DNA from: Ferroplasma acidarmanus Fer1
GTDB lineage: Archaea; Thermoplasmatota; Thermoplasmata; Thermoplasmatales; Thermoplasmataceae
Reading direction: 5' to 3'
DNA length: 64,000 bases
NCBI RefSeq assembly: GCF_000152265.2
Contig: NC_021592.1
Location: 930,001-994,000 of the forward strand
Shown here piece after piece: positions 4,222-53,687 of this stretch (within the stretch, counting starts at the first letter, position 1; each line of letters starts with the position of its first letter). The position numbers and the translations under genes are program-made. The notes under the pieces were generated by a model. It searched no databases and was not told the origin of the DNA. It was given only the letters and a program-made list of their open reading frames with translations.

Positions 4222-5271
4222 TTAATCACCCTGGTTTAGCCATGAATATAATGGATCTAAAACTATATATCTTTTGTTTTTAAGTTCTGATACATCCTTC
4301 GAAGCTGTTAAAAACATAGAAATTTTAATATCTTTTATTATATTTTTTATATGGAATACCAGATCTTCGTATGATGTGTCTGCGTCCTTTAGGAAATTCC
4401 TCGCCATAGCACCCATGTCTGCCCCCATAATTATAGATTTTACTACGTCCTGGCCATTTCTTATTCCTCCACTCCCTATAATTGGCAAACCAACGGAACA
4501 GAATTTAATAGATGCTGGTGAAGGTACTCCCCAGTTCCAGAATGTCTGGCCGGTGTGCATTTTTTCTTTATTCTGAATTTTTTCAGCCCTGTAATATTCT
4601 ATTGCAGCAAATGAAGTGCCACCAAGACCCCCAACATCTATTGCTTTGACACCTGCATCTTTTAGTTCCAGAGCATCATCCCTTGAGAATCCGCTGCCGG
4701 TTTCTTTAGCTATGACAGGATAAGATTTTGCTATTTCCTTTAGCCTTGACATCACTCCTCTAGCATTTTTGTCCCCTTCCGGCTGTACCATTTCCTGTAA
4801 AAAATTAAAATGGACAATCAGGTATTTAGCACCTATAAGATTGAATATGTATTCAATGTCTTTATCAGAAATAGGAGGCTTTTCCTGCCCGATTAGCTGT
4901 GGTGCCCCGATGTTTGCAAATCTTGCCGGTATCTTATAATTATTTATAACTGAAAATGTATCTGCTATATTTTTATTTTCTATAGCAGCCCTCATGCTCC
5001 CAACACCCATGCCTATCTTGAATTCTTCAGCTGCCCTGGCAAGGTTTTCGTTTATTTTTCTTGCTTTTTCAGTACCGCCTGTCATGGAAGATATAAGGAA
5101 TGGCAAACCGAATTCAGTTCCTAGAAAATTAATTTTTGTATTTATAGAATCATAATCAACTTCAGGTATAGCCCTGTGTATTAATCTAATATCATCCCAG
5201 AAATTGTGCTCTGAAGTAACATTCATATTCTCAGCAATATTAATATGCTCTTCCTTTCTGTTTTCTATCAT
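4222..5271 (-). CDS. fni: Isopentenyl-diphosphate delta-isomerase, type 2
   Basis: FMN- and NADPH-dependent enzyme interconverting IPP and DMAPP, the two building blocks of archaeal lipid chains (349 aa, normal length). Recognisable segments: RKEEHINIA at the N-terminus, LISSMTGGTEKARKIN, the flavin-site region IGMGVGSMRAA, KETGSGFS, DVGGLGGTSFAAIE, and the C-terminal phosphate site IIGSGGIRNGQD. The start overlaps the ipk stop by one base (TAATG). Pairing with isopentenyl phosphate kinase puts the last two steps of the archaeal mevalonate route side by side. Confidence 0.95.
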   Translation of the reverse strand: MIENRKEEHINIAENMNVTSEHNFWDDIRLIHRAIPEVDYDSINTKINFLGTEFGLPFLISSMTGGTEKARKINENLARAAEEFKIGMGVGSMRAAIENKNIADTFSVINNYKIPARFANIGAPQLIGQEKPPISDKDIEYIFNLIGAKYLIVHFNFLQEMVQPEGDKNARGVMSRLKEIAKSYPVIAKETGSGFSRDDALELKDAGVKAIDVGGLGGTSFAAIEYYRAEKIQNKEKMHTGQTFWNWGVPSPASIKFCSVGLPIIGSGGIRNGQDVVKSIIMGADMGAMARNFLKDADTSYEDLVFHIKNIIKDIKISMFLTASKDVSELKNKRYIVLDPLYSWLNQGD

Positions 5272-5999
5272 TAAACCACCGTTCCTGTAAAATTATCCTT
5301 TCCTATATTATATATTCGTTCCGGATAAAGTCCATTAATGAGGTATACAGGTATTCCTATATCAGAAATTAGTTTCATTTTATTATATTTATTCATTATT
5401 CCTCCTGTGACATCTGGATTAATAGTATCATATTGAAAATCTGTTGAAATTGTTTTTAAGAGCTTTGCATCAGGGTTATTTTTCGGATTTTTATCGAATA
5501 TGCCATCAACGTCTGAAAAGAATATTACAAATTCGGGATGCAATATTTTTGAAATATCATATGCAATATTATCGCCAGAGTATATACCTATTTCATTGCT
5601 ATGTATGTATGTATCTCCATATGAAATGGGGGTTATGCCCAGTTCCAGATATTTTGAAAAAATATTATAATTTTTTTTATTATTATAAACAAGTGATGAA
5701 ACAGGAAGTGAAATATTATAGATTTTATTTTCCTGAAAAATTTTTGAAATTTTAAGATCCAATTCTGCCATATCATTATGTACGATATTCATGCCCTCCA
5801 TTGTTCTTTCAGAAACCTGGCCTGGCAAACCATATTCTTTAGATTTTATATGGCCAAAAGAACCACCCCCATGAATTATTACCATTTGTTTATCTATACG
5901 TTTTAGAGTTTTAACAATGTTTTCTACTATTTGCCCATTGAATTTTTTATACATTGATTTGTCTGTTATAATGCTCCCACCGATCTTAATTACAATCAT
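5271..5999 (-). CDS. ipk: Isopentenyl phosphate kinase
   Basis: Phosphorylates isopentenyl phosphate to IPP with ATP (242 aa). Amino-acid-kinase fold: N-terminal MIVIKIGGSIITDKS, the glycine loop IIHGGGSFGH with His50, the catalytic His that sets IPK apart from other family members, then FSDVDGIFDKNP and VTGGIMNKYNKM for nucleotide binding. A longer reading frame extends 41 codons upstream, but those residues are not kinase-like and the ATG at 5999 gives the normal family length. In Thermoplasmatales this enzyme completes the branch running through mevalonate 3-phosphate and mevalonate 3,5-bisphosphate. First gene of the ipk-fni-ZPR1 unit. Confidence 0.93.
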   Translation of the reverse strand: MIVIKIGGSIITDKSMYKKFNGQIVENIVKTLKRIDKQMVIIHGGGSFGHIKSKEYGLPGQVSERTMEGMNIVHNDMAELDLKISKIFQENKIYNISLPVSSLVYNNKKNYNIFSKYLELGITPISYGDTYIHSNEIGIYSGDNIAYDISKILHPEFVIFFSDVDGIFDKNPKNNPDAKLLKTISTDFQYDTINPDVTGGIMNKYNKMKLISDIGIPVYLINGLYPERIYNIGKDNFTGTVV

Positions 6000-6125
6000 T
6001 GTATAAATAATATAAAAAGTGTTATTAAATTTGACTATTGCATCGGTAGTAAGAATCTGGTTAAATAGCAAATCTAGGTTTAATAATACAGATAACATAT
6101 TTTTAAAAAGCATTGTATCCAAATA

Positions 6126-14628: not shown

Positions 14629-14693
14629 AATATTTTTTTTATAAGCAATTTTCTCAACAGATTTTAATATTTATTTACGATTATGGTAATTAT

Positions 14694-14766
14694 AGCTCCG
14701 TGGTGTAGTGGACAAGCATTCCGGACTTTGGATCCGATGACGGCAGTTCGAATCTGCCCGGAGCTG
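14694..14766 (+). tRNA. tRNA-Gln (anticodon TTG)
   Basis: Acceptor stem AGCTCCG/CGGAGCT is perfect over 7 bp with discriminator G. The anticodon loop CTTTGGA gives TTG; the anticodon stem has one C-A mismatch. The T arm has CAGTTCGAATCTG. The next gene's ATG starts 2 nt after the mature 3' end. Confidence 0.94.
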
Positions 14767-14768
14767 TT

Positions 14769-14963
14769 ATGATAGAAATAATAGGAAAAGAAAAAAGAAA
14801 AATTCACATTGAAGAATCTAAAAAACTTAGCGATATCTATAGTGCTTTTAATATAGATGAGGATGGATTTGTGGCTATACTTAACGGTAACCCCGCAACT
14901 TCCGATGCTATTGTAAATCCTGAAGACAATCTGGTATTCCTTGAAATTTTTTCCGGTGGATAA
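14769..14963 (+). CDS. Ubiquitin-like sulfur carrier / small modifier (MoaD/ThiS/SAMP type)
   Basis: 64-aa beta-grasp protein ending in the FSGG di-glycine tail that is adenylated and thiocarboxylated by an E1-like enzyme. The pattern ILNGNPA...NPEDNLVFLEIFSGG is that of MoaD/ThiS proteins. Roles could be thiamine or molybdopterin sulfur transfer, tRNA thiolation or protein tagging. The ATG lies 2 nt after tRNA-Gln(TTG), so 3' processing of the tRNA would itself create an almost leaderless mRNA. An E1-like protein is encoded at 52.9-53.7 kb. The stop is 3 nt from the end of the convergent cca gene. Confidence 0.85.
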   Translation: MIEIIGKEKRKIHIEESKKLSDIYSAFNIDEDGFVAILNGNPATSDAIVNPEDNLVFLEIFSGG

Positions 14964-14966
14964 TAT

Positions 14967-16250
14967 TTAAAATAAAGACTTTGAATAGAATTTTTTAGCC
15001 ACATTTAACTTATTGACATCTTTTCCGGATACTACTTTTATTTCGCCTTTATACTGATTCAGGTTTTTGCCTATATCTGATTTTTCCAGTTCAATTTTAA
15101 TTATTTCTTCTAATTCGGTATATCTTGGCTTTGTATCTACATATATTCTGTCTCCCATAATATAAGGCCCACGCATTAACCGGCTATTTCCTTTCCATGC
15201 ATCTATGAATTTTATAGACTCGTTTGATTCGGCTGGCGGGCCCATATGTTTCTGTGCATCTGGCAATTTATTTCTCATATATTCAATCAGAATTTCTATA
15301 TTTTCCCCCATATACAATTCGGATGAGAATGGCATGAACCCTGACTTCTGGAATATATCCCATATCCGGTTTTTAAGGCGTACGGCCTGGGGGTATATTA
15401 TATCATCTATTATGTCCGGTTTTTTTAATACAAATGCTTTCATTATAGTTTTTCTATCGTATTTTATTACAGGTTCTGGATTGAAAAGTATATCTTCACG
15501 GCGTGTTACATATAATTTTGCTGCGAGTTTCAGTTTTGAAAGGTTTTCTACACTTACAGCTGCCCCTGCATTTCTTGTGGGGTCTACCGGATCAATTATT
15601 ATTACCGGCTCGTTGAATTCTTTATCACAGTTTTCCGGCACTATCAACTTTCCTTTTAAATTTGCCATGTATTGAATAAACTTTTCGAATGTGCCAAATG
15701 CAATTATTGCAATTTCACAGATATATCCTGAAAATCCTGATTTTGCTACTTCCGAACCATAAACGTTAATTTCCTTCAGAAACACCTTTAGCAGCCTTAT
15801 ATCATGCACCATTTTACTATCTGTCCTGCTTTTAACATAGATTGTATGTAGTGGCGTCCTGTCAACACTGGATACTATTCTTTCACCTTCATTTATCCTG
15901 AAAGCGGGGACTATATCGATCTTAATGCCGGATACAGACCCGGAAACGTATGGATGTTCTGCATATTTCTCTATGGCATTTTCCAGTACAGCATGTCCAA
16001 TTTCAAGCCCCTTCTTTTCTATATATTCAACAGGGTATGACCTGGAAAAAGTAATAAATAAGTCAATATCACTCGATTTCAGATTTGTACCCTTTGAAAC
16101 TGATCCGACTTCTAAAGGAGTTGCGTCTATCCCTTCTGTTTTGCATATAGCATTGATATCACTGGCAATAGCAGATACTATGTTTTTTAATTTCTCCTGT
16201 TCCTGCAATGTGGGAGTCTGTTCCTGTAACTTATTTTCTAAATAATTCAT
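14967..16250 (-). CDS. cca: CCA-adding enzyme (archaeal class I tRNA nucleotidyltransferase)
   Basis: Adds CCA to tRNA 3' ends, needed because none of the tRNA genes seen here encode CCA (427 aa). The nucleotidyltransferase motif is EVGSVSKGTNLKSSDIDLFITF with catalytic Asp residues in DID, and a third carboxylate in IKIDIVPAFR. The central VDPVDPTRNAGAAVS segment is typical of archaeal class I enzymes. It starts one base after the nac stop, so the two form an operon. Confidence 0.95.
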   Translation of the reverse strand: MNYLENKLQEQTPTLQEQEKLKNIVSAIASDINAICKTEGIDATPLEVGSVSKGTNLKSSDIDLFITFSRSYPVEYIEKKGLEIGHAVLENAIEKYAEHPYVSGSVSGIKIDIVPAFRINEGERIVSSVDRTPLHTIYVKSRTDSKMVHDIRLLKVFLKEINVYGSEVAKSGFSGYICEIAIIAFGTFEKFIQYMANLKGKLIVPENCDKEFNEPVIIIDPVDPTRNAGAAVSVENLSKLKLAAKLYVTRREDILFNPEPVIKYDRKTIMKAFVLKKPDIIDDIIYPQAVRLKNRIWDIFQKSGFMPFSSELYMGENIEILIEYMRNKLPDAQKHMGPPAESNESIKFIDAWKGNSRLMRGPYIMGDRIYVDTKPRYTELEEIIKIELEKSDIGKNLNQYKGEIKVVSGKDVNKLNVAKKFYSKSLF

Positions 16251-16583
16251 TTAATTTCCAAGGTCTATAATTGCCTGTGCAGGTTCCCCATCAGCTTTCC
16301 TGAGTGCCTCTATTGCTTTCTCCCTTGAAACATTGCACTGGGACATAACCAGTTTTATATCTTCATCATCAAATTCTTCAACAGATGCCGATTTGGGTTT
16401 TTCCTTCATGGTGCCCAGAACCTGGAATGTTTTCTGCCCCTGTGCCTCTATCATTGTGACAGACGCGTTTTCTATTATGTAATCTTTATCCTTACCTTTC
16501 AGTATAACTTCCTTAACGTCCGGCATTTCGGTGGATTTAATTCCCATCTGGTTCATCATCCTTCTTACGTCCCTTGGATTCAT
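16251..16583 (-). CDS. nac: Nascent polypeptide-associated complex protein (archaeal NAC)
   Basis: Ribosome-bound chaperone, 110 aa. N-terminal NPRDVRRMMNQMGIK, a NAC domain (GKDKDYIIENASVTMIEAQGQ, then FQVLGTM) and a C-terminal UBA domain (IKLVMSQCNVSREKAIEALR). Length and domain order are those of archaeal NAC homodimers. It is followed directly by cca. Confidence 0.95.
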   Translation of the reverse strand: MNPRDVRRMMNQMGIKSTEMPDVKEVILKGKDKDYIIENASVTMIEAQGQKTFQVLGTMKEKPKSASVEEFDDEDIKLVMSQCNVSREKAIEALRKADGEPAQAIIDLGN

Positions 16584-52148: not shown

Positions 52149-52919
52149 ATGTTACTGGTATACATTATTATGCTCATTATAGGAATAGCCGTTGGCGCCC
52201 TGACAGGAATTACCGGTAGCAGTGGCGTGCTTGTTGTTGTTCCTGTCCTTTCATATATGGGAATCAATTTTAAAACATCTGTAGGTACAAGCCTGCTGGT
52301 AGACGTGGTAACTACAACAATTGTGATATATGTATATCTCAGGAAAAAAACCCTTAATCCCGGAATAGGTATAGTACTTGGAATCGGTGCAATAATTGGT
52401 GCACAGCTTGGCTCCCTTATTGCAGGAATATTGCCTGTGCTTCCACTGGAAATCATTTTTACTGCCATGGCAGCATATATGAGCTATTATGTGATTAAAA
52501 AATCGTACAACATCGATAGCCATGGGGTCAGAAAGATGGAATTAAGCCGTAATTTAGCGTTGATAATCGGTTTTGCCCTGAGCATCCCGGTTGGCATTCT
52601 CACAGGGGTTATAGGAACCAGTGGTGGAATTATGTTTGTTTTAATTATCATGGTATTTTTCTCAATGAAGGCACAGAATATGGTAGGTACCGCAACACTT
52701 GCAATGTTTCTGTCCGCAGCAAGTGGTTCTATAGGTTATTATGACATAGGGCATATTGACTTCCTGGCAGCAATACTTATAGGTGTTGTGGCACTGGTTT
52801 CCGGCTATTATTTCTCAATATTTGCACATAAAATTAAGCAGAAATATATATACCGGTTTATAGGCGTTGTCTTCATAATTGTGGTCATAAGTGAAATTGT
52901 GAAGATTGTTGTCCTATAG
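52149..52919 (+). CDS. TauE/SafE family membrane transporter
   Basis: 256 aa, about seven or eight helices in two repeats, each starting with a glycine-rich block: GALTGITGSSGVLVVVPVL and GILTGVIGTSGGIMFVLI. These are the signature of sulfite/sulfoacetate-type exporters. Given the SQR and sulfur-carrier genes in this window, export of a sulfur oxyanion is plausible but not shown. The 3' end overlaps the convergent E1-like gene by 6 nt. Confidence 0.88.
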   Translation: MLLVYIIMLIIGIAVGALTGITGSSGVLVVVPVLSYMGINFKTSVGTSLLVDVVTTTIVIYVYLRKKTLNPGIGIVLGIGAIIGAQLGSLIAGILPVLPLEIIFTAMAAYMSYYVIKKSYNIDSHGVRKMELSRNLALIIGFALSIPVGILTGVIGTSGGIMFVLIIMVFFSMKAQNMVGTATLAMFLSAASGSIGYYDIGHIDFLAAILIGVVALVSGYYFSIFAHKIKQKYIYRFIGVVFIIVVISEIVKIVVL

Positions 52920-53687
52920 AAGAATTGATTTTCCTATGCCCGAATATTCTTTACCGAGGTACTTATAATCCTTATCATGGCAACACCTGCATTTACTGTT
53001 TCTCTCAACATTTATTTTATTAATTTCAAAATTGAAGGCATCTATAAAATAAATGCTGCCATCTATTCCATAATCCAGTAAAATTTTCACGGCAAGGTTG
53101 ACACCATATGATGCGATTAGGGCCGGCACAGTATTCAATACACCGGTTACTTCACATGATGGCAATTCAGCAGGTTCACTGTTAAAGCAGGCATAGCATG
53201 ACGTTTTTCCCGGTATTATAGCTTTAAATTCACCATACATTTCTATAGCGGATGTAAACACCCATGGTATTCCGTATTTGTCACAGGCATCATTTATTAT
53301 AAATCTGGTGGTCATATTGTCTGTTCCATCAAAAACCAGGTCTGCTGAATTTACCATATAAGCCAGAGAGGAATCAAAAGCACTATTATGGAACTCAACC
53401 TCCACATCAGGATTAATTTTCTGCAATTTTTTTGCTGCTGTTTCCGCTTTGTACTCTTTCAAATCATCCATATCATAAAGTATCTGCCTGTGAAGGTTTG
53501 TAATCTCTATCCTGTCCCTGTCCACAAGTATTAACTTCTTAACTCCTAATCGTGAAAACATCTCTGCCGCAGCACTCCCGGTGCCACCAAGGCCAATTAT
53601 GAGAATAGTTTTTTCGAGAAGCTTTTTCTGGTTAGCTTCTCCAATTTGCTTTAAAACAATTTGCCGCGAATACCTTTTCATGTCCAT
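52914..53687 (-). CDS. E1-like adenylyltransferase (MoeB/ThiF/UbaA)
   Basis: Activates a ubiquitin-like sulfur carrier at its C-terminal glycine (257 aa). Nucleotide loop GLGGTGS (32-38), RQILYDMDDL with conserved Arg, adenylation Asp in FDGTDNMTTRF, zinc cysteines Cys164/Cys167 (CYAC) and Cys233-236 (CRCC), and a candidate thioester Cys178 in ELPSCEVTGVL. The likely partner is the 64-aa carrier next to tRNA-Gln at 14.8 kb, the only one in this window. No rhodanese domain is attached. Confidence 0.9.
   Translation of the reverse strand: MDMKRYSRQIVLKQIGEANQKKLLEKTILIIGLGGTGSAAAEMFSRLGVKKLILVDRDRIEITNLHRQILYDMDDLKEYKAETAAKKLQKINPDVEVEFHNSAFDSSLAYMVNSADLVFDGTDNMTTRFIINDACDKYGIPWVFTSAIEMYGEFKAIIPGKTSCYACFNSEPAELPSCEVTGVLNTVPALIASYGVNLAVKILLDYGIDGSIYFIDAFNFEINKINVERNSKCRCCHDKDYKYLGKEYSGIGKSILL

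Follow-up and report, generated by a model that had tools for sequence, protein, structure and literature searches.

A conserved tRNA-Gln(UUG)/ubiquitin-like carrier gene pair as a probable tRNA-mRNA transcription unit in Ferroplasma and its relatives

Introduction

Bacteria possess mixed tRNA-mRNA operons, such as thrU-tyrU-glyT-thrT-tufB of E. coli, in which tRNA genes share a transcript with the gene of a tRNA-acting protein. In mitochondria, tRNAs punctuate longer transcripts and their excision by RNase P and RNase Z sets the 5' ends of mRNAs that have almost no leader (PMC5474008). Among the archaeal ubiquitin-like proteins (Ubls) that work with thiolation enzymes, SAMP2 of Haloferax has been placed alongside NcsA, for which thiolation of the Lys, Glu and Gln tRNAs has been proposed (PMC4048286), while Thermococcus relies on one ThiS-type Ubl for thiolation at both U34 and U54 (PMC11323500). 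A survey of archaeal Ubl gene neighbourhoods described an association with PAC2 in Thermoplasma, and its main text makes no mention of a tRNA gene, tRNA-Gln or CCA (PMC2948915). Our literature search, which left most subscription papers outside its reach, found no earlier report of a link between tRNA-Gln and a Ubl in Thermoplasma or Ferroplasma. Here we describe a locus of Ferroplasma acidarmanus Fer1 in which a tRNA-Gln(UUG) gene lies directly upstream of a gene for a Ubl that is a putative sulfur carrier.

Results

The DNA analysed is a stretch of 64,000 nt (the window; G000:C1:930001-994000) from a 1.94 Mb genome that forms a single contig and is labelled G000 in our comparisons. ARAGORN called a tRNA-Gln(TTG) at window positions 14693-14767 (+) and the Rfam tRNA model matched positions 944694-944766 of the genome, equivalent to 14694-14766 of the window, with 56.4 bits; the acceptor stem (AGCTCCG/CGGAGCT) and the discriminator base G14766 are consistent with the Rfam ends. 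From here to the Ubl ATG at 14769 there are exactly 2 nt (TT, 14767-14768), and the geometry first proposed by a sequence-only reading, with the carrier ATG 2 nt past the tRNA 3' end, is borne out by the ARAGORN and Rfam boundaries together with the open reading frame. The features of the locus are as follows.

14660..14693, plus strand: TATA-like A/T-rich region with ATTTTAATATTTATTTA, which begins 33 nt upstream of the tRNA; it presumably serves as promoter for the entire unit, with its position placed from the sequence
14694..14766, plus strand: tRNA-Gln(UUG), discriminator G14766, CCA not encoded (ARAGORN, Rfam tRNA)
14767..14768, plus strand: 2-nt spacer TT; a predicted tRNase Z cut after 14766 would give an mRNA starting UU-AUG
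14769..14963, plus strand: beta-grasp Ubl, a ThiS/SAMP2/TtuB-like putative sulfur carrier of 64 aa with C-terminal FSGG (Pfam, NCBIfam, AF2 and fold matches)
14967..16250, minus strand: CCA-adding tRNA nucleotidyltransferase, convergent with the Ubl (TIGR03671, 388.6 bits)
16251..16583, minus strand: NAC-like protein adjoining the CCA enzyme (the window and L122 have similar ORFs; NAC call made by eye)

The Ubl ORF starts with ATG and its protein ends in EIFSGG. It scored 24.1 bits against Pfam ThiS, above the cut-off of 22.5, and homologues were found in 46/61 genomes searched, which together show the ORF to be a real gene. Against Pfam SAMP2 it fell just under the cut-off (26.5 bits versus 27), and in NCBIfam it reached 73.8 bits with PRK06437 (cut-off 85) and 18.4 bits with the SAMP2 equivalog (cut-off 70). 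Because this last cut-off was missed, we term the protein, on its sequence scores, SAMP2-like and not a SAMP2 ortholog. An AF2 model with a pLDDT of 89.8 has the beta-grasp fold, and a Foldseek search with this model placed Thermus TtuB in complex with TtuA (5ztb, 5gha) at the top with a TM of about 0.85, with MoaD, Pyrococcus SAMP2 and ThiS next in rank. The protein terminates with Gly-Gly, and FSGG was invariant among 25 aligned sequences; in a few relatives (L025, L028, L029) the GG is followed by one further residue, which the alignment omitted.

We also examined the genome for genes that could partner this protein, and a single E1-like gene was present within the window, which confirms the E1-like gene that had been placed at 52.9 kb from the sequence.

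52914..53687, minus strand: E1-like adenylyltransferase of the ThiF/MoeB/UbaA type, the sole copy in the genome (ThiF PF00899, 230.5 bits, E=2e-68)

Its scores against the NCBIfam ThiF, MoeB and UbaA models were all under the equivalog cut-offs. There is likewise one NcsA/TtuA-type gene in the genome, which scored higher with the NcsA model (227 bits) than with TtuA (185 bits), both values lying under the respective equivalog cut-offs of 500 and 450; it encodes a PP-loop ATPase whose C-terminal family, TIGR00269, was matched at 103.7, above the cut-off of 62.75. The only other Ubl of the genome is a MoaD-like protein encoded beside MoaA, and three relatives (G010, G019 and G035) gave no MoaD match and have kept the Ubl, E1 and NcsA-type genes. 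This gene complement, together with the MoaD-less relatives, makes the Ubl next to the tRNA the natural client of the E1 for tRNA thiolation. Most likely, the Ubl supplies sulfur as a thiocarboxylate for tRNA 2-thiolation, acting with the single E1 and NcsA, where both the sulfur-carrier activity and the target nucleoside are what we infer from genes and fold; the tRNA-thiolation role suggested earlier for the carrier thus gains good indirect support from one E1, one NcsA-type enzyme, MoaD as the sole other Ubl and the TtuB fold. We think it unlikely that the main role of the Ubl is protein modification, through SAMP-like conjugation, or that it is a carrier for cofactor synthesis, in place of tRNA thiolation. 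Haloferax SAMP2 and the Thermococcus Ubls do act in conjugation as well as in sulfur transfer (PMC4048286, PMC11323500), and the Ubl of Thermoplasma follows a gene for PAC2, a proteasome-chaperone homologue whose association with the ThiS-family genes of Thermoplasma has been described before (PMC2948915), but the closest fold is that of TtuB and the genomes without MoaD retain the whole Ubl, E1 and NcsA set, although dual use is possible.

Turning to conservation, the Ubl was present in 36/37 genomes examined from the GTDB family of the window genome. In 32 of these 36 loci the gap from the end of tRNA-Gln(UUG) to the first base of the Ubl gene was at most about 20 nt, a count that includes L029, where the tRNA is partly masked as N, and L064, where the acceptor stem is irregular. 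Two loci had wider spacing (118 nt in G017 and about 206 nt in G030), and in the other two the tRNA was absent and the Ubl was preceded by a PAC2 gene; both belong to g6, which we call Thermoplasma by inference, with the PAC2 neighbour among the grounds. Prefoldin was also considered as the identity of this upstream gene in Thermoplasma and rejected in favour of PAC2. A strict motif, composed of the tRNA 3' part, 2-20 nt including the discriminator, and ATGAT, was found in 53/77 family genomes and 15/19 genera with zero matches in the reversed control, where the figure of 53/77 rests on a DNA motif and a few extra matches, in G029, G062, G063 and G064, may be tRNA-Gln(CUG). Three further genera (g8, g9 and g13) hold the pair in variant sequence, so that motif and locus inspection combined give the pair in 18/19 genera, with Thermoplasma the sole genus without it. 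With 32/36 loci tight, and the strict motif in 53/77 genomes against zero control matches, the adjacency of tRNA-Gln and Ubl is not due to chance, and the check for conservation in relatives that accompanied the original proposal comes out in its favour. The pair was not found in the examined loci from other families of the order. A narrower-alignment search for related loci returned 15, one of them from the same-genus 'Ferroplasmaceae archaeon UBA567'.

A tree of the CCA enzyme, rooted on other families and with moderate backbone supports (mostly 80-90), grouped the genomes with spacers of 1-2 nt into one clade (SH-aLRT 100). Thermoplasma was nested among linked genera and the linked genus g10 branched first, a topology that favours an ancestral link followed by one loss. 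Thermoplasma is therefore apparently without the pair through loss, and an origin of the linkage at or before the base of the family is favoured.

Downstream, the stop codons of the Ubl and CCA-enzyme genes lie 3 nt apart (window 14961-14969), and the 3' ends of their transcripts probably overlap as antisense. This convergent adjacency is retained in most family loci including those of Thermoplasma, where the NAC-like gene also belongs to the conserved block. Upstream of tRNA-Gln the genes vary among genus groups (DUF1641/SQR, ferredoxin-like, MBL-like and others), and in G001, G022, G026 and G015 the downstream flank no longer includes the CCA enzyme, with the pair retained. As the flanks change while the pair persists, tRNA-Gln and Ubl have stayed together more steadily than the genes around them, although the Ubl-CCA synteny is also well conserved.

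Spacer lengths were bimodal across 55 genomes, with 1-3 nt in 15 (g1, g18 and g19, which are Ferroplasma and sister genera and form one clade) and 7-16 nt in 40, and in all 55 this same-strand junction of 1-16 nt is too short for a promoter. A TATA matrix trained on the regions upstream of 44 tRNAs had too little power against the A/T-rich background, so A/T-run statistics were used instead. The longest A/T run within the window tRNA-Gln is 3 nt, which is seen in 0.36% of 73-nt windows, and the internal maximum was 3-4 nt in every relative examined, while most relatives carry an A/T run of at least 6 nt that begins about 30-37 nt upstream of the tRNA. Since there is no promoter-like A/T stretch between the genes or inside the tRNA, a TATA-dependent promoter for the Ubl does not fit and one transcript from the tRNA promoter is simplest; a promoter within the tRNA, which had been named as the observation that would overturn a shared transcript, has no candidate at this level. 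From these sequence features, expression of the Ubl most likely comes solely from the 3' portion of the tRNA-Gln transcript. Counter to this, the gaps of 118 and about 206 nt in G017 and G030 could house an independent promoter.

It is quite unlikely, in our judgement, that the linkage merely reflects gene-order inertia, with tRNA-Gln, Ubl, CCA enzyme and NAC forming an old neighbourhood in which the Ubl has an internal or alternative promoter. Part of the linkage does look like ordinary synteny, given that the Ubl-CCA adjacency is conserved too, even in Thermoplasma, but the tRNA stayed through several exchanges of its upstream genes, the pair persists without the CCA neighbour in G001, G022 and G026, and neither spacers of 1-16 nt nor a tRNA without an A/T stretch above 4 nt offers room for such a promoter.

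In the long spacers, a Shine-Dalgarno (SD) complement of at least 4 nt occurred in 23/36 distinct sequences, compared with 10.1 +/- 2.6 after shuffling and with 0/5000 shuffles reaching the observed value, and the anti-SD sequence was found in 8/8 genomes checked. The leaderless mRNA envisaged by the sequence-only reading is accordingly predicted in near-leaderless form for Ferroplasma and its sister genera, whereas elsewhere that idea gives way to a 7-16 nt spacer, usually with an SD.

We then compared 44 tRNAs between G000 and G019, where the only tight, conserved downstream pairs were tRNA-Gln(UUG)-Ubl and tRNA-Lys(UUU)-rpoH; tRNA-Gln(CUG) has a conserved downstream gene at 53/105 nt. The rpoH gene begins 12 nt after tRNA-Lys(UUU), with an SD in the spacer (L047:1229-1577, about 1.141 Mb in G000), and a motif similar, though not equal, to that of the Ubl pair found this arrangement in 13/77 family genomes and 4/19 genera. 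Two other candidate tight pairs were discarded: tRNA-Ala(UGC)/ORF 5271-6122, which has an unlikely TTG start and a conserved kinase-like part that begins, by eye, about 40 residues in, and tRNA-Glu(CUC)/Usp, which is not conserved in G019. Several further arrangements were seen. Behind tRNA-Pro(CGG) lies a gene for a 435-aa protein with no Pfam match (L050:1568-2997, about 1.355 Mb in G000), about 99% identical in G019, which is of a different genus, and it seems to be a recombinase-like element that was exchanged recently; downstream of tRNA-Thr(GGT) there is a phage-integrase gene (L049:247-1598), possibly an integrated element. tRNA-Arg(CCG) begins on the last base of a gene for a 160-aa protein (L032:1036-1590), and this overlap (-1/-2 nt) is retained in G019 at 59% identity, making another mixed protein-tRNA unit. 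Lastly, in several genera, Thermoplasma among them, a same-strand tRNA-Ile(GAU) comes 36-172 nt after the ncsA-type gene (L120:1040-2083, L140-L144, L147), and this adjacency is absent in G010, G019 and G035. We set aside an obligate ncsA/tRNA-Ile co-transcript, as these gaps hold A/T-rich stretches and co-transcription is not required.

Discussion

Taken together, we consider it probable that tRNA-Gln(UUG) and the Ubl constitute one tRNA-mRNA transcription unit, in which tRNase Z makes the 5' end of an mRNA for a thiolation carrier and the arrangement is held by promoter lock-in. The tRNA promoter would drive a single precursor spanning both genes, from which RNase P and tRNase Z would excise tRNA-Gln, and the tRNase Z cut after the discriminator base would become the 5' end of the Ubl mRNA. 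This mRNA is predicted to start as a near-leaderless UU-AUG in Ferroplasma and sister genera and with a leader of 7-16 nt, usually bearing an SD motif, in the others. The protein would then donate sulfur, with the E1 and NcsA, to U34 of the Gln, Lys and Glu tRNAs and/or to U54. The linkage would be kept mainly because the Ubl gene has no other promoter, with steady co-expression with a tRNA as a possible benefit.

A stronger proposal is that the shared transcript ties the carrier to its substrate, such that the maturation or thiolation state of tRNA-Gln sets carrier output, for instance by modification-dependent precursor processing that would give feedback from substrate to carrier. A putative thiolation carrier does stand behind a classic s2U34 tRNA across the family, the Haloferax proposal names Gln among the tRNAs thiolated by NcsA with SAMP2 (PMC4048286), and the convergent neighbour is the CCA-adding enzyme. 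The tie is not supported by our comparison, however, as the equally tight tRNA-Lys(UUU)-rpoH pair has a like anatomy and involves no tRNA modifier, which means that shared-promoter lock-in suffices, and Thermoplasma, which has lost the pair, manages without it, making the link dispensable. Furthermore, spacer length varies and initiation switches between SD and near-leaderless forms, which speaks against a fixed regulatory RNA element, and since U34 and U54 share one Ubl in Thermococcus, any tRNA could be a substrate and tRNA-Gln may not be a privileged one (PMC11323500). We therefore give little credence to this regulatory coupling, or to a substrate-to-carrier circuit in which carrier supply depends on thiolated-tRNA maturation, through tRNase Z mRNA release, and in turn feeds back on it; were such a circuit true, it would be an archaeal case of tRNA processing as an expression switch for a tRNA-modifying pathway. 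On the preferred reading of one transcription unit kept by lock-in, the pair offers a naturally varying test case of how archaeal tRNA 3' processing makes translatable mRNA ends, and its analysis identifies the likely tRNA-thiolation carrier of the acidophilic Thermoplasmata.

Compared with known systems, the components resemble those of Haloferax volcanii SAMP2/UbaA/NcsA (PMC4048286), with Ubl, E1 and NcsA-type enzymes all present, although the window Ubl is far under the SAMP2 equivalog cut-off, its gene sits behind tRNA-Gln and the pathway here is predicted from its genes. TtuB-TtuA of Thermus and UblA of Thermococcus (5gha, 5ztb; PMC11323500) provide the closest fold and a ThiS-type thiouridine carrier, but identity is about 20% and the partner enzyme here gets a better score with the NcsA model than with the TtuA model. 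In the same genomes, tRNA-Lys(UUU)-rpoH shares the tight same-strand tRNA-mRNA junction with an SD spacer, and differs in having an RNA polymerase subunit downstream and in reaching fewer genera (4/19 versus 15/19). Relative to the tufB operon of E. coli, the unit is archaeal, has a spacer of 1-16 nt and carries a putative thiolation carrier in place of EF-Tu. The predicted setting of an mRNA 5' end by tRNA excision, with almost no leader, recalls mitochondrial tRNA punctuation (PMC5474008), whereas here only one conserved pair is involved, the organism is a free-living archaeon, the leader is near-leaderless or SD-bearing and cleavage is predicted. The tRNA-Gln/Ubl pair is thus a conserved new form of a known tRNA-mRNA arrangement.
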